From contig NZ_JAIQZF010000008.1 in assembly GCF_020164585.1 (NCBI RefSeq), positions 1 through 64,000 of the forward strand: a stretch of 64,000 nucleotides of DNA, given 5' to 3'. How positions within the stretch are numbered: the first letter of the stretch is position 1; each line of letters opens with the position of its first letter. The notes below the pieces were generated by a model, which saw only the letters and a list, made by a program, of their open reading frames with translations, was not told where the DNA came from and ran no database searches. A program made the translations under genes and the position numbers. Origin of the DNA: Psychroflexus curvus (GTDB lineage: Bacteria; Bacteroidota; Bacteroidia; Flavobacteriales; Flavobacteriaceae). Shown one piece after another: positions 6,019 through 11,915 of the stretch.

Positions 6019-6888
6019 AAGGAAGGATTATAGTTTTAATGAATCAATATCTTTTTTTTGCTACTCATACATTTTAGGTCTTCAAGGGATTGTTCCCGGA
6101 CCCGTGATTTCATAGTTAATTTGGACAGATTAGTGTATGATTCACACTGGCATTCTTTCAATGATTTCATACATGATTATAAGATTTTAAACAAGCCTGT
6201 CCATAAAATAGGTTTCAAAAAACAAAGAATGATTAAAGATGTTTTAACATCATGTTTTGTTAAACATAATAAAAAATTATTATAAATCAAATTATATTTA
6301 GTTGACTTACAGGAGTTAGGGTTTATTTTATTATTTGTGAACTAAAAATAGATTAAGAAAACACCATTATTATAGAATGTACCTAATGGGCAAATTGAAG
6401 AAGTGAGCCTAAATGGAATTTTAATAGTTGGGTAGGGGGTAGCTGTGGTAAAATCTTTGCTTTAACTCTTGGATTCTGTGTTGAAATTATTACTTAAATC
6501 AATAATAGTTGAGGTTGCAGGCATTTGAGAGAGGAGAGGTAGTGGTCATACCGTTGAGGTGTTAACCTCGGTTTAATTCATTTTATTTTAGTCTGTTTTT
6601 AAAGGCGTATTGATATCATATATAAAATCGGGTATTTATTATTTCAAATATTTGCCACTAATATTAAATAGTGGTAATAATTTGATTTCAGATTATCTTA
6701 TAAAAAGAAATGATATATCCGATTTTATATCGCTTATAATTTTAAGGTTTTAGGATTCATCAAGAAGAGATAAATGCCTTATATTAGTCTAAAATTAATA
6801 ATAACAAGGTAAACGATCGCGTAAACGATTTTACTTTTAGTGCTGTAATATAGGGTAATTTCATTAAAATATAGCAATTTTGATGAAA
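6019..6888. other. 870-bp AT-rich region without a convincing gene
   Basis: No reading frame here has a recognisable domain, signal peptide or plausible start site. It contains the upstream region of the lipoprotein gene (minus strand) at its left end and one copy of a 33-bp dispersed repeat at 6551-6582. The right end runs into the tRNA fragment at 6889 without any trace of a tRNA 5' half. Confidence 0.6.
6551..6582 (+). repeat. short direct repeat, copy 1
   Basis: CCGTTGAGGTGTTA followed, after about 7 differing bases, by GTTTAATTCATT. The same arrangement recurs at 10383-10415 in the same orientation, so the pair brackets the GIY-YIG/tRNA array and the DUF2779 remnant. Confidence 0.6.
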
Positions 6889-6933
6889 CTCATAACCCGA
6901 AGGTCACTGGTTCGAGTCCAGTCCCCGCTACTA
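6889..6933 (+). pseudogene. initiator tRNA (fMet) 3' fragment, leading copy
   Basis: The fragment begins in the anticodon loop (CTCATAACCCGAAGGTC, CAU anticodon) and continues through a perfect T arm, ACTGG-TTCGAGT-CCAGT, and the acceptor strand CCCCGCT with discriminator A. The 5' side of the anticodon stem should be GGG for an fMet tRNA but is GAAA here, and no D arm or acceptor 5' strand is present upstream. It is the best-preserved T arm and acceptor end at the left edge of the array and is followed by the repeated terminator. Confidence 0.85.
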
Positions 6934-6936
6934 AGT

Positions 6937-6966
6937 AAAAGCTTCACAGCAATGTGAGGCTTTTTT
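6937..6966 (+). terminator. rho-independent terminator of the repeat unit
   Basis: The stem AAAGCTTCAC / GTGAGGCTTT with a short AGCAAT-type loop is followed by TTTTTT. It recurs after each tRNA fragment at about 7301, 7660, 8024, 8388, 8752, 9119 and 9487, so it travels with the cassette. It probably terminated the ancestral tRNA-fMet transcript. Confidence 0.85.
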
Positions 6967-6981
6967 AGTTTAAATTAGGAT

Positions 6982-7233
6982 ATGGAATTTGCCGTCTATA
7001 TTTTAAAATCTTTGTCTTATGACAGACATTATGTTGGCCTTACACAGAATTTAATCTCAAGATTTAAATCTCACAATTCACTAGGGAAGAAAGGCTTTAC
7101 CACAAGATATCGACCCTGGTTTGTGATTTGGGTAGAGTTTTATACAACAAAAGCTGAAGCAATGTCCAGAGAAAAATTTCTAAAAAGCGGCAAAGGTAGG
7201 GAGTGGATGCAAAATCATATTGATGATTACTAG
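6982..7233 (+). CDS. GIY-YIG family nuclease, array copy 1
   Basis: This complete 83-residue single-domain GIY-YIG protein has the GIY strand as VYIL (residues 5-8), the YIG strand as YVG (17-19), the conserved Arg27 in ISRFKSHN, and Glu64 in SREKFLKSGKGREW. The length matches the small UvrC-like GIY-YIG family. The sequence AGGAT lies just before the ATG. The TAG stop is also the TAG of the tRNA TAGCTC motif. A Tyr replaces Ser at residue 13 relative to the other copies. Family members are DNA nucleases; a role in moving or maintaining this cassette is inference. Confidence 0.85.
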   Translation: MEFAVYILKSLSYDRHYVGLTQNLISRFKSHNSLGKKGFTTRYRPWFVIWVEFYTTKAEAMSREKFLKSGKGREWMQNHIDDY

Positions 7234-7298
7234 CTCTTTGGGCTCCTATCCGCCCTAGGCGGACACTGGTTCGAGTCTCCGCCCGAGGCGGACTACTA
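7231..7298 (+). pseudogene. tRNA-fMet 3' fragment, copy 1
   Basis: It starts at TAGCTC (end of the D loop and 3' D stem) and has the anticodon loop changed from CTCATA to CTCCTAT. A GC-rich palindrome (TCCGCCCTAGGCGGA) replaces the 3' anticodon stem and variable loop. It keeps CACTGGTTCGAGT of the T arm, then a second palindrome (TCCGCCCGAGGCGGA) before CTACTA. It cannot fold as a working tRNA. Confidence 0.8.
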
Positions 7299-7345
7299 GT
7301 AAAAGCTTCACAGCAATGTGAGGCTTTTTTAGTTTAAATTAGGAT

Positions 7346-7597
7346 ATGGAATTTGCCGTCTATATTTTAAAATCTTTGTCTTCCGACAGACATTATGTTG
7401 GCTTTACACAGAATTTAATCTCAAGATTTAAATCTCACAATTCACTAGGGAAGAAAGGCTTTACCACAAGATATCGACCCTGGTTTGTGATTTGGATAGA
7501 GTTTTATAAAACAAAAGCTGAAGCGGTGTCCAGAGAAAAATTTTTAAAAAGTGGTAAAGGACGGGAGTGGATGCAAAAGCATATCTATGATTACTAG
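7346..7597 (+). CDS. GIY-YIG family nuclease, array copy 2
   Basis: This 83-residue copy has all GIY-YIG landmarks intact (VYIL, YVG, Arg27, Glu64). It differs from copy 1 by YVGF for YVGL, WIEFYKTKAEAV for WVEFYTTKAEAM, and the ending KHIYDY. Its stop is shared with the downstream tRNA fragment. The Glu/Arg catalytic positions are retained, so it may encode an active enzyme. Confidence 0.85.
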   Translation: MEFAVYILKSLSSDRHYVGFTQNLISRFKSHNSLGKKGFTTRYRPWFVIWIEFYKTKAEAVSREKFLKSGKGREWMQKHIYDY

Positions 7598-7656
7598 CTC
7601 TTCGGGCTCATATCCGCCTAAGGCGGACACTGGTTCGAGTCCAGTCCCCGCTACTA
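7595..7656 (+). pseudogene. tRNA-fMet 3' fragment, copy 2 (best preserved)
   Basis: TAGCTCTTCGGGCTCATAT is followed by the TCCGCCTAAGGCGGA palindrome, then the complete T arm (ACTGGTTCGAGTCCAGT) and acceptor strand CCCCGCT-A-CTA. It keeps the CAU anticodon and matches the fMet pattern TAGCTCGTCGGGCTCATA at all but a few bases. It shows that the fragments derive from initiator tRNA, starting in the D arm. Confidence 0.85.
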
Positions 7657-7704
7657 ATTTAAAGCTTCACAGCAATGTGAGGCTTTTTTAGTTTAAATTA
7701 GGAT

Positions 7705-7956
7705 ATGGAATTTGCCGTCTATATTTTAAAATCTTTGTCTTCCGACAGACATTATGTTGGCCTTACACAGAATTCAATCTCAAGATTTCAATCGCATAAT
7801 GAATTAGGGAAGAAAGGTTTCACGACAAGATATCGGCCATGTTTTGTGATTTGGGTAGAGTTTTATACAACAAAAGCTGAAGCAATGTCCAGAGAAAAAT
7901 TTCTAAAAAGCGGCAAAGGTAGGGAGTGGATGCAAAATCATATTGATGATTACTAG
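7705..7956 (+). CDS. GIY-YIG family nuclease, array copy 3
   Basis: This 83-residue copy carries the variant block NSISRFQSHNELGKK, RPCF in place of RPWF, and the VEFYTTKAEAM ending of copy 1. The catalytic Arg27 and Glu64 are present. The unit before it is 5 bp shorter (period 359) because its tRNA fragment lacks the acceptor palindrome. Confidence 0.85.
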   Translation: MEFAVYILKSLSSDRHYVGLTQNSISRFQSHNELGKKGFTTRYRPCFVIWVEFYTTKAEAMSREKFLKSGKGREWMQNHIDDY

Positions 7957-8021
7957 CTCTTTGGGCTCCTATCCGCCTTAGGCGGACACTGGTTCGAGTC
8001 TCCGCCCGAGGCGGACTACTA
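7954..8021 (+). pseudogene. tRNA-fMet 3' fragment, copy 3
   Basis: Same layout as copy 1: TAGCTC, altered anticodon loop CTCCTAT, palindrome TCCGCCTTAGGCGGA, T-arm half ACTGGTTCGAGT, second palindrome TCCGCCCGAGGCGGA, then CTACTA and the terminator. Confidence 0.8.
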
Positions 8022-8068
8022 GTAAAAGCTTCACAGCAATGTGAGGCTTTTTTAGTTTAAATTAGGAT

Positions 8069-8320
8069 ATGGAATTTGCCGTCTATATTTTAAAATCTTT
8101 GTCTTCCGACAGACATTATGTTGGCCTTACACAGAATTCAATCTCAAGATTTAAATCTCACAATTCACTAGGGAAGAAAGGTTTCACGACAAGATATCGG
8201 CCATGTTTTGTGATTTGGGTAGAGTTTTATACAACAAAAGCTGAAGCAATGTCCAGAGAAAAATTTTTAAAAAGTGGTAAAGGACGGGAGTGGATGCAAA
8301 ATCATATTGATGATTACTAG
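8069..8320 (+). CDS. GIY-YIG family nuclease, array copy 4
   Basis: This 83-residue copy combines the FKSHNSLGKK block of copies 1-2 with RPCF and VEFYTTKAEAM of copy 3, an example of block shuffling inside the array. Arg27 and Glu64 are intact. Confidence 0.85.
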   Translation: MEFAVYILKSLSSDRHYVGLTQNSISRFKSHNSLGKKGFTTRYRPCFVIWVEFYTTKAEAMSREKFLKSGKGREWMQNHIDDY

Positions 8321-8385
8321 CTCTTTGGGCTCCTATCCGCCTTAGGCGGACACTGGTTCGAGTCTCCGCCCGAGGCGGACTACTA
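8318..8385 (+). pseudogene. tRNA-fMet 3' fragment, copy 4
   Basis: It is identical in layout to copy 3, with anticodon loop CTCCTAT and palindromes in the variable region and the acceptor side. The terminator follows at about 8388. Confidence 0.8.
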
Positions 8386-8432
8386 GTAAAAGCTTCACAG
8401 CAATGTGAGGCTTTTTTAGTTTAAATTAGGAT

Positions 8433-8684
8433 ATGGAATTTGCCGTCTATATTTTAAAATCTTTGTCTTCCGACAGACATTATGTTGGCCTTACACAGAA
8501 TTCAATCTCAAGATTTCAATCGCATAATGAATTAGGGAAGAAAGGTTTCACGACAAGATATCGACCCTGGTTTGTGATTTGGATAGAGTTTTATAAAACA
8601 AAAGCTGAAGCGGTGTCCAGAGAAAAATTTTTAAAAAGTGGTAAAGGACGGGAGTGGATGCAAAAGCATATTGATGATCACTAG
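8433..8684 (+). CDS. GIY-YIG family nuclease, array copy 5
   Basis: This 83-residue copy joins the FQSHNELGKK block with RPWF, WIEFYKTKAEAV and the ending KHIDDH. The last codon before the stop is CAC rather than TAC. Catalytic landmarks are intact. Confidence 0.85.
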   Translation: MEFAVYILKSLSSDRHYVGLTQNSISRFQSHNELGKKGFTTRYRPWFVIWIEFYKTKAEAVSREKFLKSGKGREWMQKHIDDH

Positions 8685-8749
8685 CTCTTCGGGCTCCTAT
8701 CCGCCTAAGGCGGACACTGGTTCGAGTCTCCGCCCGAGGCGGACTACTA
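8682..8749 (+). pseudogene. tRNA-fMet 3' fragment, copy 5
   Basis: TAGCTCTTCGGGCTCCTAT is followed by palindrome TCCGCCTAAGGCGGA, the T-arm half, and palindrome TCCGCCCGAGGCGGA before CTACTA. Confidence 0.8.
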
Positions 8750-8793
8750 GTAAAAGCTTCACAGCAATGTGAGGCTTTTTTTGTTTTAAATCG

Positions 8794-9051
8794 GTTACAG
8801 AAGACTATGTTGTTTATGTTTTGAAATCTCTATCTTCAGATAAACATTATATGGGTTTGACCCAGAATTCAATCTCAAGATTTAAATCTCACAATTCACT
8901 AGGGAAGAAAGGCTTTACCACAAGATATCGACCCTGGTTTGTGATTTGGATAGAGTTTTATAAAACAAAAGCTGAAGCGGTGTCCAGAGAAAAATTTTTA
9001 AAAAGTGGTAAAGGACGGGAGTGGATGCAAAAGCATATCTATGATTACTAG
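8794..9051 (+). pseudogene. GIY-YIG array copy 6, start codon missing
   Basis: In frame, the copy reads VTEDYVVYVLKSLSSDKHYM before rejoining the common sequence at GLTQNSIS. The first 30 codons use different codons from copies 1-5 (for example TTGAAATCTCTA for TTAAAATCTTTG), so this 5' part comes from a diverged lineage. There is no ATG where other copies start; the first possible start is TTG at 8821, which would remove the GIY strand. The ORF otherwise ends normally at the tRNA TAG. It is probably not expressed as an active nuclease. Confidence 0.7.
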
Positions 9052-9116
9052 CTCTTCGGGCTCATATCCGCCTAAGGCGGACACTGGTTCGAGTCTCCGC
9101 TCGAGGCGGACTACTA
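9049..9116 (+). pseudogene. tRNA-fMet 3' fragment, copy 6
   Basis: It keeps the CAU anticodon (CGGGCTCATAT), then palindrome TCCGCCTAAGGCGGA, the T-arm half and TCCGCTCGAGGCGGA, in which one base disturbs the palindrome, before CTACTA. Confidence 0.8.
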
Positions 9117-9161
9117 AGAAAAAGCTTCACAGCAATGTGAGGCTTTTTTTGTTTTAAATCG

Positions 9162-9419
9162 GTTACAGAAGACTATGTTGTTTATGTTTTGAAATCTCTA
9201 TCTTCAGATAAACATTATATGGGTTTGACCCAGAATTCAATCTCAAGATTTAAATCTCACAATTCACTAGGGAAGAAAGGCTTTACCATAAGATATCGAC
9301 CCTGGTTTGTGATTTGGATAGAGTTTTATAAAACAAAAGCTGAAGCGGTGTCCAGAGAAAAATTTCTAAAAAGCGGCAAAGGTAGGGAGTGGATGCAGAA
9401 TCATATTGATGATTACTAG
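9162..9419 (+). pseudogene. GIY-YIG array copy 7, start codon missing
   Basis: It has the same diverged 5' block as copy 6 (VTEDYVVYVL...HYMG) and the same lack of an ATG; the first in-frame start candidate is TTG at 9189. Thr41 is changed to Ile (FTIRYRPW). The 3' half matches copies 1-5, with NHIDDY at the end. Copies 6 and 7 are probably a local duplication. Confidence 0.7.
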
Positions 9420-9484
9420 CTCTTCGGGCTCCTATCCGCCTTAGGCGGACACTGGTTCGAGTCTCCGCCTGAGGCGGACTACTA
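9417..9484 (+). pseudogene. tRNA-fMet 3' fragment, copy 7
   Basis: TAGCTCTTCGGGCTCCTAT is followed by TCCGCCTTAGGCGGA, the T-arm half, TCCGCCTGAGGCGGA and CTACTA. The following terminator loop has CCATG instead of CAATG. Confidence 0.8.
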
Positions 9485-9532
9485 AGAAAAAGCTTCACAG
9501 CCATGTGAGGCTTTTTTTGTTTAAATTAGAAT

Positions 9533-9754
9533 ATGGAATATGCTGTCTATGTTTTAAAATCTTTGTCTTCGGCAAAACATTATGTTGGCCTTACACAGAA
9601 TTTAATCTCAAGATTTCAATCGCATAATGAATTAGGGAAGAAAGGTTTTACGACAAGATATCGGCCATGGTTTGTGATTTGGGTAGAGTTTTATACAACA
9701 AAAGCTGAAGCAATGTCCAGAGAAAAATTTCTAAAAAGCGGCAAAGGTAGGTAG
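9533..9754 (+). pseudogene. GIY-YIG array copy 8, premature stop
   Basis: It starts with ATG and reads MEYAVYVLKSLSSAKHYVG, with Arg27 and Glu64 present. A GAG to TAG change at codon 74 (GKGR then stop) removes the last ten residues. The original stop context, ACTAGCTC, is still visible at 9780-9787. Loss of the tail after the catalytic Glu may or may not abolish activity. Confidence 0.75.
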
Positions 9755-9781
9755 TGGATGCAAAATCATAATGATGATTAC

Positions 9782-9897
9782 TAGCTCTTCGGGCTCCTAT
9801 CCGCCTTAGGCGGACACTGGTTCTTCCGAGGTTTCGGACCTGCCTGCCTGCCTGCCTGCCTGCCCGACTGGGACAGGAAGGCAGGTCCCCGCTACTA
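9782..9897 (+). pseudogene. tRNA-fMet 3' fragment, copy 8, expanded
   Basis: TAGCTCTTCGGGCTCCTAT, the TCCGCCTTAGGCGGA palindrome and CACTGGTTC are present. The T arm is then interrupted by a GC-rich insert of about 60 bp containing a CCTG tetranucleotide repeat. The acceptor end CCCCGCTACTA follows at 9887-9897. Confidence 0.75.
9838..9886 (+). repeat. GC-rich hairpin with CCTG tetranucleotide repeat
   Basis: GGACCTGCC begins a run of CTGC/CCTG tetranucleotides (five to six units), followed by a short loop with GGGACAGG and closed by GGCAGGTCC. The ends pair (GGACCTGCC with GGCAGGTCC), so the whole insert can form a long hairpin. A related CCTGCCTG/CAGGCAGG palindrome sits inside the glycosyltransferase gene at 59617-59645. 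Confidence 0.75.
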
Positions 9898-9900
9898 GTA

Positions 9901-9935
9901 AAATCCACTAATTTTAAAATTAGTGGATTTTTATT
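9901..9935 (+). terminator. terminator closing the array
   Basis: AAATCCACTAATTTT pairs perfectly with AAAATTAGTGGATTT and is followed by TTATTTT. It differs from the cassette terminator and marks the right edge of the array, perhaps the terminator of the ancestral locus. Confidence 0.8.
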
Positions 9936-10003
9936 TTGCGATGGTTTGAGCGAGAAGTCTATCCTGATCGAAATACAACGGAAACGAAGGGAGTCCAGCC
10001 TGC

Positions 10004-10186
10004 CCTAACGGCTTATTCTTTTACCCAATACACCAACATGGCTGATAAAGAGCGTGAAGAAATCAGAAAAGCACTGTTGTGGTATTGTGAGCTGGATACG
10101 CTTGCCATGGTCATTGTTTTGAGCATTTGGTGGATATGGTTGAATATGATGCTGCGCTTAAAAGCAAGATCCAATATTTTCAATAA
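10004..10186 (+). pseudogene. DUF2779 protein C-terminal remnant, frameshifted
   Basis: The frame reads AYSFTQYTNMADKE, then REEIRKALLWYCELDTLAMV, and after a one-base deletion near 10120 the next frame continues EHLVDMVEYDAALKSKIQYF and stops at 10186. CELDTLAMVxIxEH near the C-terminus is characteristic of DUF2779 proteins, which usually have several hundred residues. Only about 60 codons remain. It lies just right of the tRNA array, so the array or its rearrangement may have removed the rest. Confidence 0.8.
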
Positions 10187-10382
10187 AACATTTTTATAAA
10201 TGCTCATGTTATTTAGATGAATCTCTGGCTCAAACCAATTGATGCATCGCCTAATGACATAGCAGCTGAAAAGCCGTTGTTAGAACCGTTGCATTAGCCG
10301 TTGCACTTCATTTCAATGCTGTTGCTTTAATTATTAAAAGCCTGTCTTACAGGTTTTTAAATATATAACTTAAATAAGAAAA

Positions 10383-10436: not shown

Positions 10437-11384
10437 TTAATCTTCTAATTCTAAAGATTGATATCTGCTTTTAAGTAAATTTATATAAGCCGTTTTCATA
10501 CCATCTGATAGAAAGGATCGATGAACCCACTCCATGGCCTTCGGCTTATTTTTTTTAATTCGATTGAAGCTCCCTTTGATTTGCTTAGGAGTCAATTCCA
10601 TGCCTTTAGCCAATTTTTCAAAATGTTCTCGCTTAAATTTCTTTTTCTTCCCTGATAAAGACAAAGCAAGTTCCTCGGTGTCGTCTGGTAGTACTATAGA
10701 AGCATTCAAAAGATCATAAGCTGGTGATAATGTCCAGCCCGTTTGACTTTCTATCATGGAAAAGTTTTTAAGGTGCATATCATTGTTACCAGTAACAAAC
10801 GATAAAAGAGCTAAATCAAAATAAAAGGTTTTATCTAGCAAAGTGTTACTGGAATACTTGTCCAGCGCATTTCCGATTTTTTCCATAGACCCTTTATACT
10901 TATCAAATGCTTCTGTGATTTGAAACATGTCCAGCATATGTATTTTTCTTCCATCTTCTGTTCGGTCAACCCGTTTTGTTATGTAAGATAATTCTCCTGA
11001 AGATAATCGAATAAGTGATGAAGGAACAACCCTGATTCCAAATGCTTCAGCTATACGCATGGTGACATGCTCGTTTTCCGGCATTTCAGGAAATTGCTCA
11101 GAAGGTGGCTTAAAGATGTATTGACCTCCCAATGCATCTATAACGGTTAAGCGTGTATTGGAATTCTTTTTAGCCTTATCAACTAATGACAAAGATAGTT
11201 TTGGTTGAACGCCTGGGACAGCAATGCTTCGTTCTAAAACACGTTTGGCAAGCTCATCCATTTGGTTAAGAGTATACTCTATTTCAGGTGGTGTTTTGGA
11301 ATCAAAAAACAGAAGAGAGCAATCTTGATGAAAGTCATGTCCTTTTTCAATAGCTTTATAACAATACAAACATTTATTTTTCAT
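10437..11384 (-). CDS. hipT: HipT-like serine/threonine kinase toxin
   Basis: This 315-residue protein carries the HipA C-terminal kinase domain. The N-terminus has a small zinc-knuckle pattern (C5xxC8, H19xxC22). RSIAVPGVQPKLSLSL at residues 52-67 is the ATP-loop region; in HipT the Ser-Ile-Ser motif is the autophosphorylation site, and here it reads Ser53-Ile54-Ala55. The catalytic core is TGNNDMHLKNFSMI with the metal-ligand Asp in SPAYDLLNA. Because HipA's N-terminal subdomain is encoded separately by the upstream gene, the unit fits the three-part HipBST type, in which HipT phosphorylates an aminoacyl-tRNA synthetase (TrpS in E. coli O127). It overlaps hipS by 11 bp. Target here is unknown. 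Confidence 0.85.
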   Translation of the reverse strand: MKNKCLYCYKAIEKGHDFHQDCSLLFFDSKTPPEIEYTLNQMDELAKRVLERSIAVPGVQPKLSLSLVDKAKKNSNTRLTVIDALGGQYIFKPPSEQFPEMPENEHVTMRIAEAFGIRVVPSSLIRLSSGELSYITKRVDRTEDGRKIHMLDMFQITEAFDKYKGSMEKIGNALDKYSSNTLLDKTFYFDLALLSFVTGNNDMHLKNFSMIESQTGWTLSPAYDLLNASIVLPDDTEELALSLSGKKKKFKREHFEKLAKGMELTPKQIKGSFNRIKKNKPKAMEWVHRSFLSDGMKTAYINLLKSRYQSLELED

Positions 11385-11709
11385 CTTCTTCTGTAATAGG
11401 TTCTACACTCACGGCACCGATGCAGTTTTGACAGCAAGCCAATAACAATCCCATTCTGTCATTTTTATTGATTTTCCAATTTTCAGAAGCAATATCCAGT
11501 AACCAGCCTTCTGGAATTAAGCCTTCAAAAAAAGGAAAAAGTCGTTTTTCGGTGTAGGCTTCATGTTGAACAGGCATGGTGAAGCTGATAAATTTATGAG
11601 GATGATTTGTTACATAATCATCCTCATATTGAAACACATAGTCACCATCATTGGTTTCTGTGATGATTCCAGCCAAATGGGTTTTATAAAATACCTTTCC
11701 TTGTCTCAT
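11374..11709 (-). CDS. hipS: HipS-like antitoxin (HipA N-terminal subdomain)
   Basis: This 111-residue protein matches the HipA N-terminal subdomain: GKVFYKTHLAGIITE, YEDDYVTNHPHKFISFTMP, and FPFFEGLIPEGWLLDIASE followed by DRMGLLLACCQNCIGAVSVE. In full-length HipA this part is fused to the kinase. As a separate gene between an HTH gene and a kinase it corresponds to HipS, which neutralises HipT in the known HipBST system. ATGA overlap with hipB upstream and 11-bp overlap with hipT downstream support translational coupling. Confidence 0.85.
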   Translation of the reverse strand: MRQGKVFYKTHLAGIITETNDGDYVFQYEDDYVTNHPHKFISFTMPVQHEAYTEKRLFPFFEGLIPEGWLLDIASENWKINKNDRMGLLLACCQNCIGAVSVEPITEEDEK

Positions 11710-11915
11710 TTATGCATTGCTTTACTGTTAACTGGTGCTAATTCATGTCCGAACATTCTGAGAACCAGATTGACTTTTTCCATGTTTAGATTGGTTTTAC
11801 CCTGTTCAATTTTACGAACGACCGTCAATGCAACTCCTGCACGATCGGCAAATTCTTCCTGTGTAAGATTAACTTGCTTTCTACGCTCTTTTACAAAATC
11901 CGCTAATTGATTCAT
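11706..11915 (-). CDS. hipB: HipB-like HTH regulator
   Basis: This 69-residue XRE-type DNA-binding protein has the helix-turn-helix in LTQEEFADRAGVALTVVRKI followed by EQGKTNLNMEKVNLVLRMFG. It is the first gene of the three-gene operon and should repress it, helped by HipS/HipT as in other hip systems. An operator-like site overlaps its start codon and two more lie upstream at 40-bp steps. Confidence 0.85.
   Translation of the reverse strand: MNQLADFVKERRKQVNLTQEEFADRAGVALTVVRKIEQGKTNLNMEKVNLVLRMFGHELAPVNSKAMHK

Follow-up and report, generated by a model that had tools for sequence, protein, structure and literature searches.

Among the sites at which integrases insert, transfer RNA (tRNA) genes are the best known. 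Here we describe an array of small GIY-YIG nuclease open reading frames (ORFs), each followed by a partial copy of the initiator tRNA gene (tRNA-fMet), in a stretch of 64,000 nucleotides from Psychroflexus curvus (assembly GCF_020164585.1, contig NZ_JAIQZF010000008.1, positions 1 to 64,000, forward strand; hereafter the window). Several described systems resemble parts of this array. The tyrT repeats of Escherichia coli are likewise tandem repeats bearing a tRNA 3' end but, to our knowledge, hold no nuclease gene, unlike the array. SegB of phage T6, a GIY-YIG protein, cuts within tRNA genes, and its nuclease is needed to amplify a unit of tRNA-Tyr plus segB, a process that also needs phage recombination genes (PMC13096335). 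In mobile ORFs of fungal mitochondria (Allomyces atp6; Glomus atp6, atp9, cox2, and nad3), a nuclease ORF lies between a gene and a duplicated part of that gene, the Glomus atp9 ORF being of the GIY-YIG type (PMC3630166).

We read the array, with a probability of about 0.77, as a tandemly amplified, chromosomal, free-standing homing-type cassette aimed at tRNA genes. An earlier, sequence-only reading of this DNA had proposed a tRNA-homing nuclease cassette with an intact tRNA on one side and a tRNA part on the other, and comparison with related genomes lends this proposal strong support.

Layout of the array and its product

Eight tandem units lie at 6939-9900, behind one tRNA-fMet 3' half. 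They measure 359-411 base pairs (bp) each, with eight terminator starts, in keeping with the sequence-only description of eight units of about 360 bp made of a GIY-YIG ORF, a tRNA part, and a terminator. Within each unit, a terminator-like hairpin is followed by a small GIY-YIG ORF and then by a partial tRNA-fMet copy of 62-116 bp; the partial copies start 359-368 bp apart. The features are as follows (E, expectation value; aa, amino acids).

6550..6889, + strand: end of an integrated element abutting the tRNA-fMet 3' half (6550-6936 is 92.5% identical to contig C31)
6890..6933, + strand: tRNA-fMet 3' half, from anticodon loop to 3' end, without the 5' half
6939..6966, + strand: terminator-like hairpin with a T run, unit 1
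7303, 7662, 8026, 8390, 8754, 9122, 9490, + strand: terminator starts, units 2-8
6982..7233, + strand: GIY-YIG ORF, unit 1, 83 aa (PF01541, E 1.2e-15)
7231..7298, + strand: palindrome-broken partial tRNA-fMet, unit 1, its TAG being the ORF stop
7346..7597, + strand: GIY-YIG ORF, unit 2, 83 aa (PF01541, genome search)
7595..7656, + strand: partial tRNA-fMet, unit 2
7705..7956, + strand: GIY-YIG ORF, unit 3, 83 aa (PF01541, genome search)
7954..8021, + strand: partial tRNA-fMet, unit 3
8069..8320, + strand: GIY-YIG ORF, unit 4, 83 aa (PF01541, genome search; AlphaFold2 model)
8318..8385, + strand: partial tRNA-fMet, unit 4
8433..8684, + strand: GIY-YIG ORF, unit 5, 83 aa (PF01541, E 1.4e-14)
8682..8749, + strand: partial tRNA-fMet, unit 5
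8803..9051, + strand: GIY-YIG frame, unit 6, without the usual in-frame ATG (TTG at 8821; PF01541, genome search)
9049..9116, + strand: partial tRNA-fMet, unit 6
9171..9419, + strand: GIY-YIG frame, unit 7, without the usual in-frame ATG (TTG at 9189; PF01541, genome search)
9417..9484, + strand: partial tRNA-fMet, unit 7
9533..9754, + strand: GIY-YIG ORF, unit 8, 73 aa, early TAG (Pfam scan)
9782..9897, + strand: last partial tRNA-fMet copy, with further palindromic repeats

Because the eight units are only 82-97% identical to one another, they have probably diverged as separate copies and do not reflect a single repeat that the assembly multiplied. The claim that every ORF stops at the TAG of TAGCTC in the tRNA part holds for units 1-7; in unit 8, an earlier in-frame TAG at 9752-9754 leaves an ORF of only 73 aa. 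At the usual start, units 6 and 7 show no in-frame ATG; from a TTG further in, they encode 76 aa. A partial tRNA-fMet does follow each ORF, as had been said, but it is not simply the rest of the 3' part: the stretch after the anticodon is replaced by the palindrome CCGCCTNAGGCGG, which the sequence-only reading had not mentioned. This palindrome is exact in seven of the eight units, with a second copy in unit 7; its eight places in the window all fall within the array, and it occurred in none of 100 shuffles. Another palindrome is often present in the T/acceptor part of the units' partial tRNA. ARAGORN called no tRNA anywhere in the window, and a search of Rfam with 6500-10300 (E ≤ 1) returned neither a tRNA nor an intron family, so a group I intron holding a GIY-YIG gene was not found. 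In the class sample described below, moreover, ARAGORN calls the tRNAs adjoining the ORFs as whole genes.

The Pfam GIY-YIG family PF01541 matched all three window ORFs scanned (E 1e-14 to 1e-16), with no second Pfam domain in that scan, and a genome-wide search matched all eight units. Across 24 relatives, residues Y6, Y17, G19, R27, H31, and E64 are invariant; we take these to be the GIY-YIG catalytic positions. An AlphaFold2 model of the unit 4 protein, the first sequence of the modeled alignment, reached a predicted local distance difference score (pLDDT) of 82.1 and a predicted template modeling score (pTM) of 0.72. Its best fold match was the UPF0213 protein 1zg2 at E 1.8e-3, with none at E ≤ 0.001, while profile comparison ranked 1zg2 (E 9e-14), 1ywl (E 4e-13), and SLX1 chains (E 8e-7 to 4e-5) as the best solved relatives. 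The Pfam match, the invariant residues, and a model nearest to a GIY-YIG protein together provide the nuclease domain expected of a homing endonuclease gene. No PHROG family matched the window protein, and 6 of the 24 aligned relatives matched phrog_314, a homing endonuclease family.

Recurrence beside tRNA genes and nuclease lineages

We examined the same genome, which has 25 PF01541 matches and 34 tRNAs. GIY-YIG ORFs lie within about 420 bp of the intact tRNA-Arg(ACG), tRNA-Ser(TGA), and tRNA-Asp genes and of a CAT-anticodon tRNA on contig C35, each of these loci having partial copies of its adjacent tRNA. At tRNA-Arg the ORF is upstream and enters the tRNA by 20 bases, with its stop in the D loop.

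Beyond this genome, 31 genomes were searched with PF01541, and the stand-alone loci among the matches listed, together with nine own-genome loci and one Flavobacterium record, form what we call the Pfam sample (own, genus, and order genomes, chosen mainly by Pfam). With adjacency defined as a same-strand tRNA no more than 600 bp away, 34 of its 89 loci adjoin a tRNA, where chance predicts 1.3% of own-genome positions (either strand). Unlike the class and phylum samples below, this sample is not biased toward the tRNA-linked lineage. A weak own-genome match at C31:34448, missed by the seed profile, lies outside it. Where PF01541 occurs in proteins of 457-649 aa (eight loci: L048, L051, and L088-L093), no tRNA was found within about 1.5 kb. 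A scan of contig sequences gave two loci, one adjoining tRNA-Asn in Flavobacterium macrobrachii. A profile of the 24 proteins matched 138 of 198 class genomes (E ≤ 1e-6), a profile match alone not establishing tRNA linkage. At the top of its match list, 77 of 88 distinct loci have an adjacent intact tRNA, spanning 23 labeled tRNA kinds, with the ORF downstream in 63 and upstream in 14; partial copies, counted wherever in the locus, are present in 70 of the 88. In the phylum, 77 of 148 genomes matched at E ≤ 1e-15; of 23 loci newly fetched there, 19 adjoin a tRNA, and 18 have partial copies. The commonest layout is an intact tRNA, then the ORF, then a partial copy of that same tRNA. Labels are those of ARAGORN, at least one of which (L186, Phe or Ala) is doubtful; its selenocysteine (SeC) and Phe(aaa) calls were ignored in the Pfam-sample tree, as were SeC and unknown types in the class and phylum samples. 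One class locus, L200 (G137:C9:904500-912000, merged with L171 as one array), holds ten ORFs at 457 bp spacing behind an intact tRNA-fMet, and the same genome has a second array of at least four ORFs at C9:624689-626071.

Occupancy of the tRNA-fMet gene was compared within the genus. A tRNA-fMet pattern matched in 18 of 19 genomes; the 18 loci read comprise 17 tRNA-fMet genes and one elongator. The exact pattern occurs once each in 17 of the 19, own genome included. An ORF lies directly downstream in 4 of the 17: G010, G006, G012 (at a contig end), and G014 (as a remnant). The earlier search target, an intact tRNA-fMet followed by the cassette, thus exists in congeners; its absence from relatives had been named as the outcome that would overturn the idea, and the ten-ORF array of class genome G137 is a further occurrence. 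The own intact gene is among the 13 of 17 without a downstream ORF (three of the loci have short flanks). Such patchy presence at orthologous tRNA genes, with empty alleles, is what free-standing homing endonuclease genes display.

Another of their marks, a cassette more similar than its flank, was seen at one locus pair. At the tRNA-Asn locus of G008 and G001, identity is 79.3% in the upstream flank, 96.0% in the tRNA, 99.7% in ORF1, and 97.4% in ORF2; downstream homology was not found at this pair. At the same tRNA, G015 has the ORF2 type only and G004 a decayed ORF1 type only, whose partial copy shows both palindromes by eye. In pairs with unsaturated synonymous divergence (dS) above 0.1, the ratio of nonsynonymous to synonymous divergence (dN/dS) is 0.05-0.36, with the caveat that copies within an array may be homogenized. 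By these ratios, selection on the nuclease ORFs is purifying. A tblastn search of phage records with an Asn-type relative as query gave no match; a plasmid search gave two, at 34-35% identity.

A tree of 108 domains from the Pfam sample, excluding ORFs of at least 200 aa, domains under 55 residues, and the duplicate loci L066, L067, and L079, has two groups: one of 59 rows, to which almost every tRNA-linked ORF belongs, and one of 49. With the eight window rows set aside, 37 of 51 rows are tRNA linked in the first group versus 2 of 49 in the second (Fisher P 2e-13); a further second-group ORF, L100, is near tRNA-Gln on the opposite strand. The 14 unlinked first-group rows were inspected by eye: six have tRNA pieces, five sit inside protein genes, one (L113) adjoins a protein gene, and two are undecided. 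In a tree of 112 rows (one domain per locus; L239 dropped for its short domain), tRNA identity required 57 label changes versus 88.5 in shuffles, a count that 0 of 200 shuffles equaled or undercut; for host family the figures were 81 versus 82.2, with 49 of 200 as low. As far as these comparisons reach, the nuclease tree tracks tRNA identity, not host family. One group, with a support of 99 in the approximate likelihood ratio test SH-aLRT, holds all 21 initiator or elongator tRNA-Met rows, including the window's, and two further rows that lack an intact tRNA. The string CATAACCC is present in 18 of 18 class tRNAs of this Met lineage and absent from all 59 other cassette tRNAs, including three that also have a CAT anticodon. 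Judged by this placement, the window nuclease, a minimal GIY-YIG protein of about 83 aa, is a member of the lineage associated with Met-tRNA genes holding CATAACCC. Seven Asn rows form their own group and five fall elsewhere; the Leu rows group together with two Ser rows.

Broken tRNA copies, protein-gene cassettes, and the left edge

We then scored palindromes, as perfect stems of at least 6 starting no more than 6 bases from the inner edge of a partial copy; they occur at 119 of 230 edges versus 5 of 230 shuffled flanks. Genome background was considered as their source and rejected, stems of at least 6 being found in 96 of 3080 random stretches versus 119 of the 230 edges. The palindrome TCCGCCTNAGGCGGA has 23 sites in the own genome, 8 in the array and 3 in the C31 tRNA-fMet repeats, and is hence not exclusive to the array. 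One site, at G000:C23:427197, is about 40 bp from a stand-alone GIY-YIG ORF (match C23:426937-427155) of a mostly non-tRNA-linked lineage.

Where a copy is broken mostly goes with the nuclease lineage. In the Met group the break spans mostly tRNA positions 37/38 to 47-49, in the anticodon arm; the main Asn group has it at 25 to 36, many Val cassettes and the Arg(TCT) cassettes at about 28 to 44, and several Arg cassettes at 22/23. The genus's Phe cassettes and some Leu and Ser cassettes break in the T loop. The two copies at the G008 tRNA-Asn gene differ: the one behind ORF1 has its break in the anticodon arm, the one behind ORF2 in the T loop. The palindrome probably marks the nuclease target. 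Entry through the D loop, as the sequence-only reading had it, does not describe the window units or most Met-group loci, which break at about 37-48; breaks in the D loop or the T loop belong to other lineages. The further idea that the cassette carries its own tRNA 3' part finds no support here, as the partial copy resembles the resident tRNA more than a foreign one: of 44 loci, 28 have a copy closer to the resident than to every other tRNA of that kind in the sample, 13 are tied, and 3 are worse. In the tRNA-Asn cassettes L121, L124, L135, and L137, the D arm of the tRNA and the palindrome together encode the ORF C terminus, GKLAQLVRVPHVRD, which four genomes share unchanged.

Five genus loci of the tRNA-linked group (L153, L082, L097, L101, and L108) lie inside protein genes. 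Near both ends of these cassettes are exact inverted repeats, 9-13 bases long, e.g., ACCTGTGAAAT...ATTTCACAGGT. Among 11 cassettes without a tRNA, 7 (L153, L082, L097, L101, L108, L174, and L175) have such repeats, the longest exact ones being 9-13 bases and matched by no more than 4 of 200 shuffles; in L113 the repeat is not at the ends, and L190, L194, and L217 have none above chance. Host genes, named by eye, are AlbA-like, epimerase, and four-helix-bundle genes. In L082 and L097, the 5' part of the epimerase-like gene is repeated before the ORF, with the intact gene start after it (by eye). L101, L108, and the class locus L175 have look-alike host genes, presumably of the four-helix-bundle type. 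L194 and L217 are seemingly within protein genes (integrase and transposase). Just downstream of the ORF-bearing element at L175 is an ORF-less mini-element with CCCTGTGAAATAA...TTATTTCACAGGG ends that resembles a nonautonomous copy, a hint at a class of autonomous and nonautonomous elements. A broader view, which we hold to be rather unlikely, would make the palindromes short mobile hairpins, placed at or left after the cutting of target loops by GIY-YIG nucleases and blocking re-cutting, with the GIY-YIG cassettes (those of tRNA genes and those of protein genes, bounded by inverted repeats) and the many small GC-rich palindromes of these genomes as the autonomous and nonautonomous forms of one new mobile-element class.

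The array begins without a tRNA 5' half, as the sequence-only reading had observed, and elements integrated in tRNA-fMet would best explain this. The own intact tRNA-fMet is at C31:69484-69556, adjoined by a phage-type integrase and preceded by four ORF-less partial copies. The array head, 6890-6933, matches this gene without mismatch over the 25 bases tested, and window positions 6550-6936 are 92.5% identical over 388 columns to a C31 stretch lying directly against a second tRNA-fMet 3' half, the one (at C31:36.9 kb) inside which a serine recombinase gene ends. G010 has the upstream partial copies, the intact tRNA-fMet, and the GIY-YIG unit in one uninterrupted stretch. Because the C31 element ends match the left edge and the G010 locus is contiguous, the array was probably split from the gene at C31:69484 by site-specific-recombinase elements integrating in that tRNA, a split that remains inferential as the window contig and C31 are not joined in the assembly. 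The window's right flank showed no homology to two congener tRNA-fMet loci. Upstream of the intact gene, tandem repeats of tRNA-fMet parts, broken by palindromes and without an ORF, number four in the own genome (G000:C31:69484-70000; L020 and L261) and seven in G010 (L117). Adjoining the array on the minus strand, 10437-11915 encode a HipA-type toxin as two ORFs (HipA N-terminal and C-terminal domains) and a helix-turn-helix gene.

Competing explanations and known systems

In the homing reading, the cassette adjoins an intact tRNA, with a partial copy beyond the ORF that is often palindrome-broken at the probable nuclease target. Insertion would be tolerated because the tRNA stays whole; spread would follow from a cut and copying into the same tRNA gene of other genomes, and tandem arrays would come from repeated cutting or from unequal exchange between repeats. 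Cleavage in the tRNA gene, repair by recombination, and a protective role of the palindrome are all presumed steps.

Tandem repeats recombine readily, and tRNA genes could be recombination hot spots at which a bystander repair-type gene for a small GIY-YIG protein is duplicated by unequal exchange, the protein taking no part in movement. The ORF-less partial-tRNA repeats upstream of tRNA-fMet at C31:69484 and in G010 suit this passive account. It nevertheless appears improbable to us, since the pattern recurs at 23 labeled tRNA kinds with lineages that track the tRNA and not the host family, since the G008/G001 cassette is far more similar than its flank and the ORFs are under purifying selection, and since a sister GIY-YIG group in the same genomes is tRNA linked in only 2 of 49 rows. 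Slightly less credible again is a domesticated host function, in tRNA dosage or in defense against tRNA-cutting toxins, comparable to what SegB amplification gives phage T6. The strong purifying selection would fit, as would the SegB precedent (PMC13096335); the window units, however, amplify broken tRNA parts and not an intact tRNA, and occupancy is patchy among close relatives.

Very improbable, in our estimate, is that the partial tRNAs are attachment (att) scars of tyrosine or serine recombinase islands with GIY-YIG genes as cargo. The tRNA-fMet gene does receive recombinase elements, as the serine recombinase at C31:36.9 kb and the phage-type integrase beside C31:69484 indicate, but cassettes lie on both sides of tRNAs, upstream and downstream. 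For the array itself we rejected this origin: units of 359-411 bp with one GIY-YIG frame each leave no room for a recombinase, and the partial copies are internally palindrome-broken, unlike exact att repeats. The units lack the integrase or recombinase that tRNA-targeting integrative islands carry within the element.

Several observations weigh against the homing reading. The intact tRNA keeps the presumed target, and the simple rule of homing, in which insertion destroys the site, does not cover these cassettes: it is the partial copies that are often palindrome-broken, at lineage-linked places, while the intact tRNA remains. A wider recognition site, low expression, or an SLX1-like preference for structure could possibly account for the tolerance of the intact tRNA. 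The protein has no visible DNA-binding domain, and among solved structures it is most closely related to UPF0213 proteins and to SLX1, which is structure specific. No relative was found in pattern-based scans of viral contigs or in phage records. The trees rest on 82-85 columns; in the 108-domain tree, L143, a congener ORF beside a CAT-anticodon tRNA, falls with the Asn rows on a long branch, and the own-genome ORFs linked to tRNA-Ser and tRNA-Asp fall outside the main group. Clustering by tRNA could reflect old vertical inheritance with losses, only the tRNA-Asn pair speaking directly for recent sharing. Break positions have exceptions (e.g., L184, L202, and L244), and the 230 edges are not independent within one array or locus. 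The profile behind the class and phylum samples was built mostly from tRNA-linked rows (19, with four more located inside or beside protein genes and one from the window) and therefore favors the tRNA-linked lineage. No tRNA adjoins 11 of the 88 class loci; on inspection by eye, five of these have tRNA pieces, five group with the protein-gene cassettes in the tree, and one is undecided.

Altogether, the results suggest that selfish genes homing on tRNA genes form a family that has received little notice. Such cassettes would be a second kind of parasite that may use tRNA genes, integrase-free, far smaller, and common in the phylum. They supply natural nuclease-tRNA pairs by the dozen, whose specificity appears to be coded within about 85 residues, and may account for many tRNA fragments and small GIY-YIG genes. 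Among the titles and abstract starts listed for GIY-YIG and tRNA, none presents such a system in bacterial chromosomes, most subscription papers and preprints being outside its coverage.

Among solved proteins, the small GIY-YIG proteins of UPF0213 and SLX1 are nearest to the window protein; we know of no tRNA linkage for either. SegB is larger than the window ORFs, and by sequence the window protein falls outside the SegB family proper. The SegB motif RAWTSGAAC, reversed, resembles the tRNA T loop, and that string is found in 29 of 77 cassette tRNAs. The likeness to SegB of phages T4 and T6 lies in a GIY-YIG gene among tRNA genes, in tandem repeats of tRNA plus nuclease, and in microhomology between the tRNA end and the gene end (PMC13096335). 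SegB is a phage protein, whereas here small ORFs (83 aa in the window) lie in bacterial chromosomes alongside a partial, often palindrome-broken tRNA copy. The fungal mitochondrial elements bring a foreign gene end (PMC3630166), whereas here the partial tRNA resembles the resident one.

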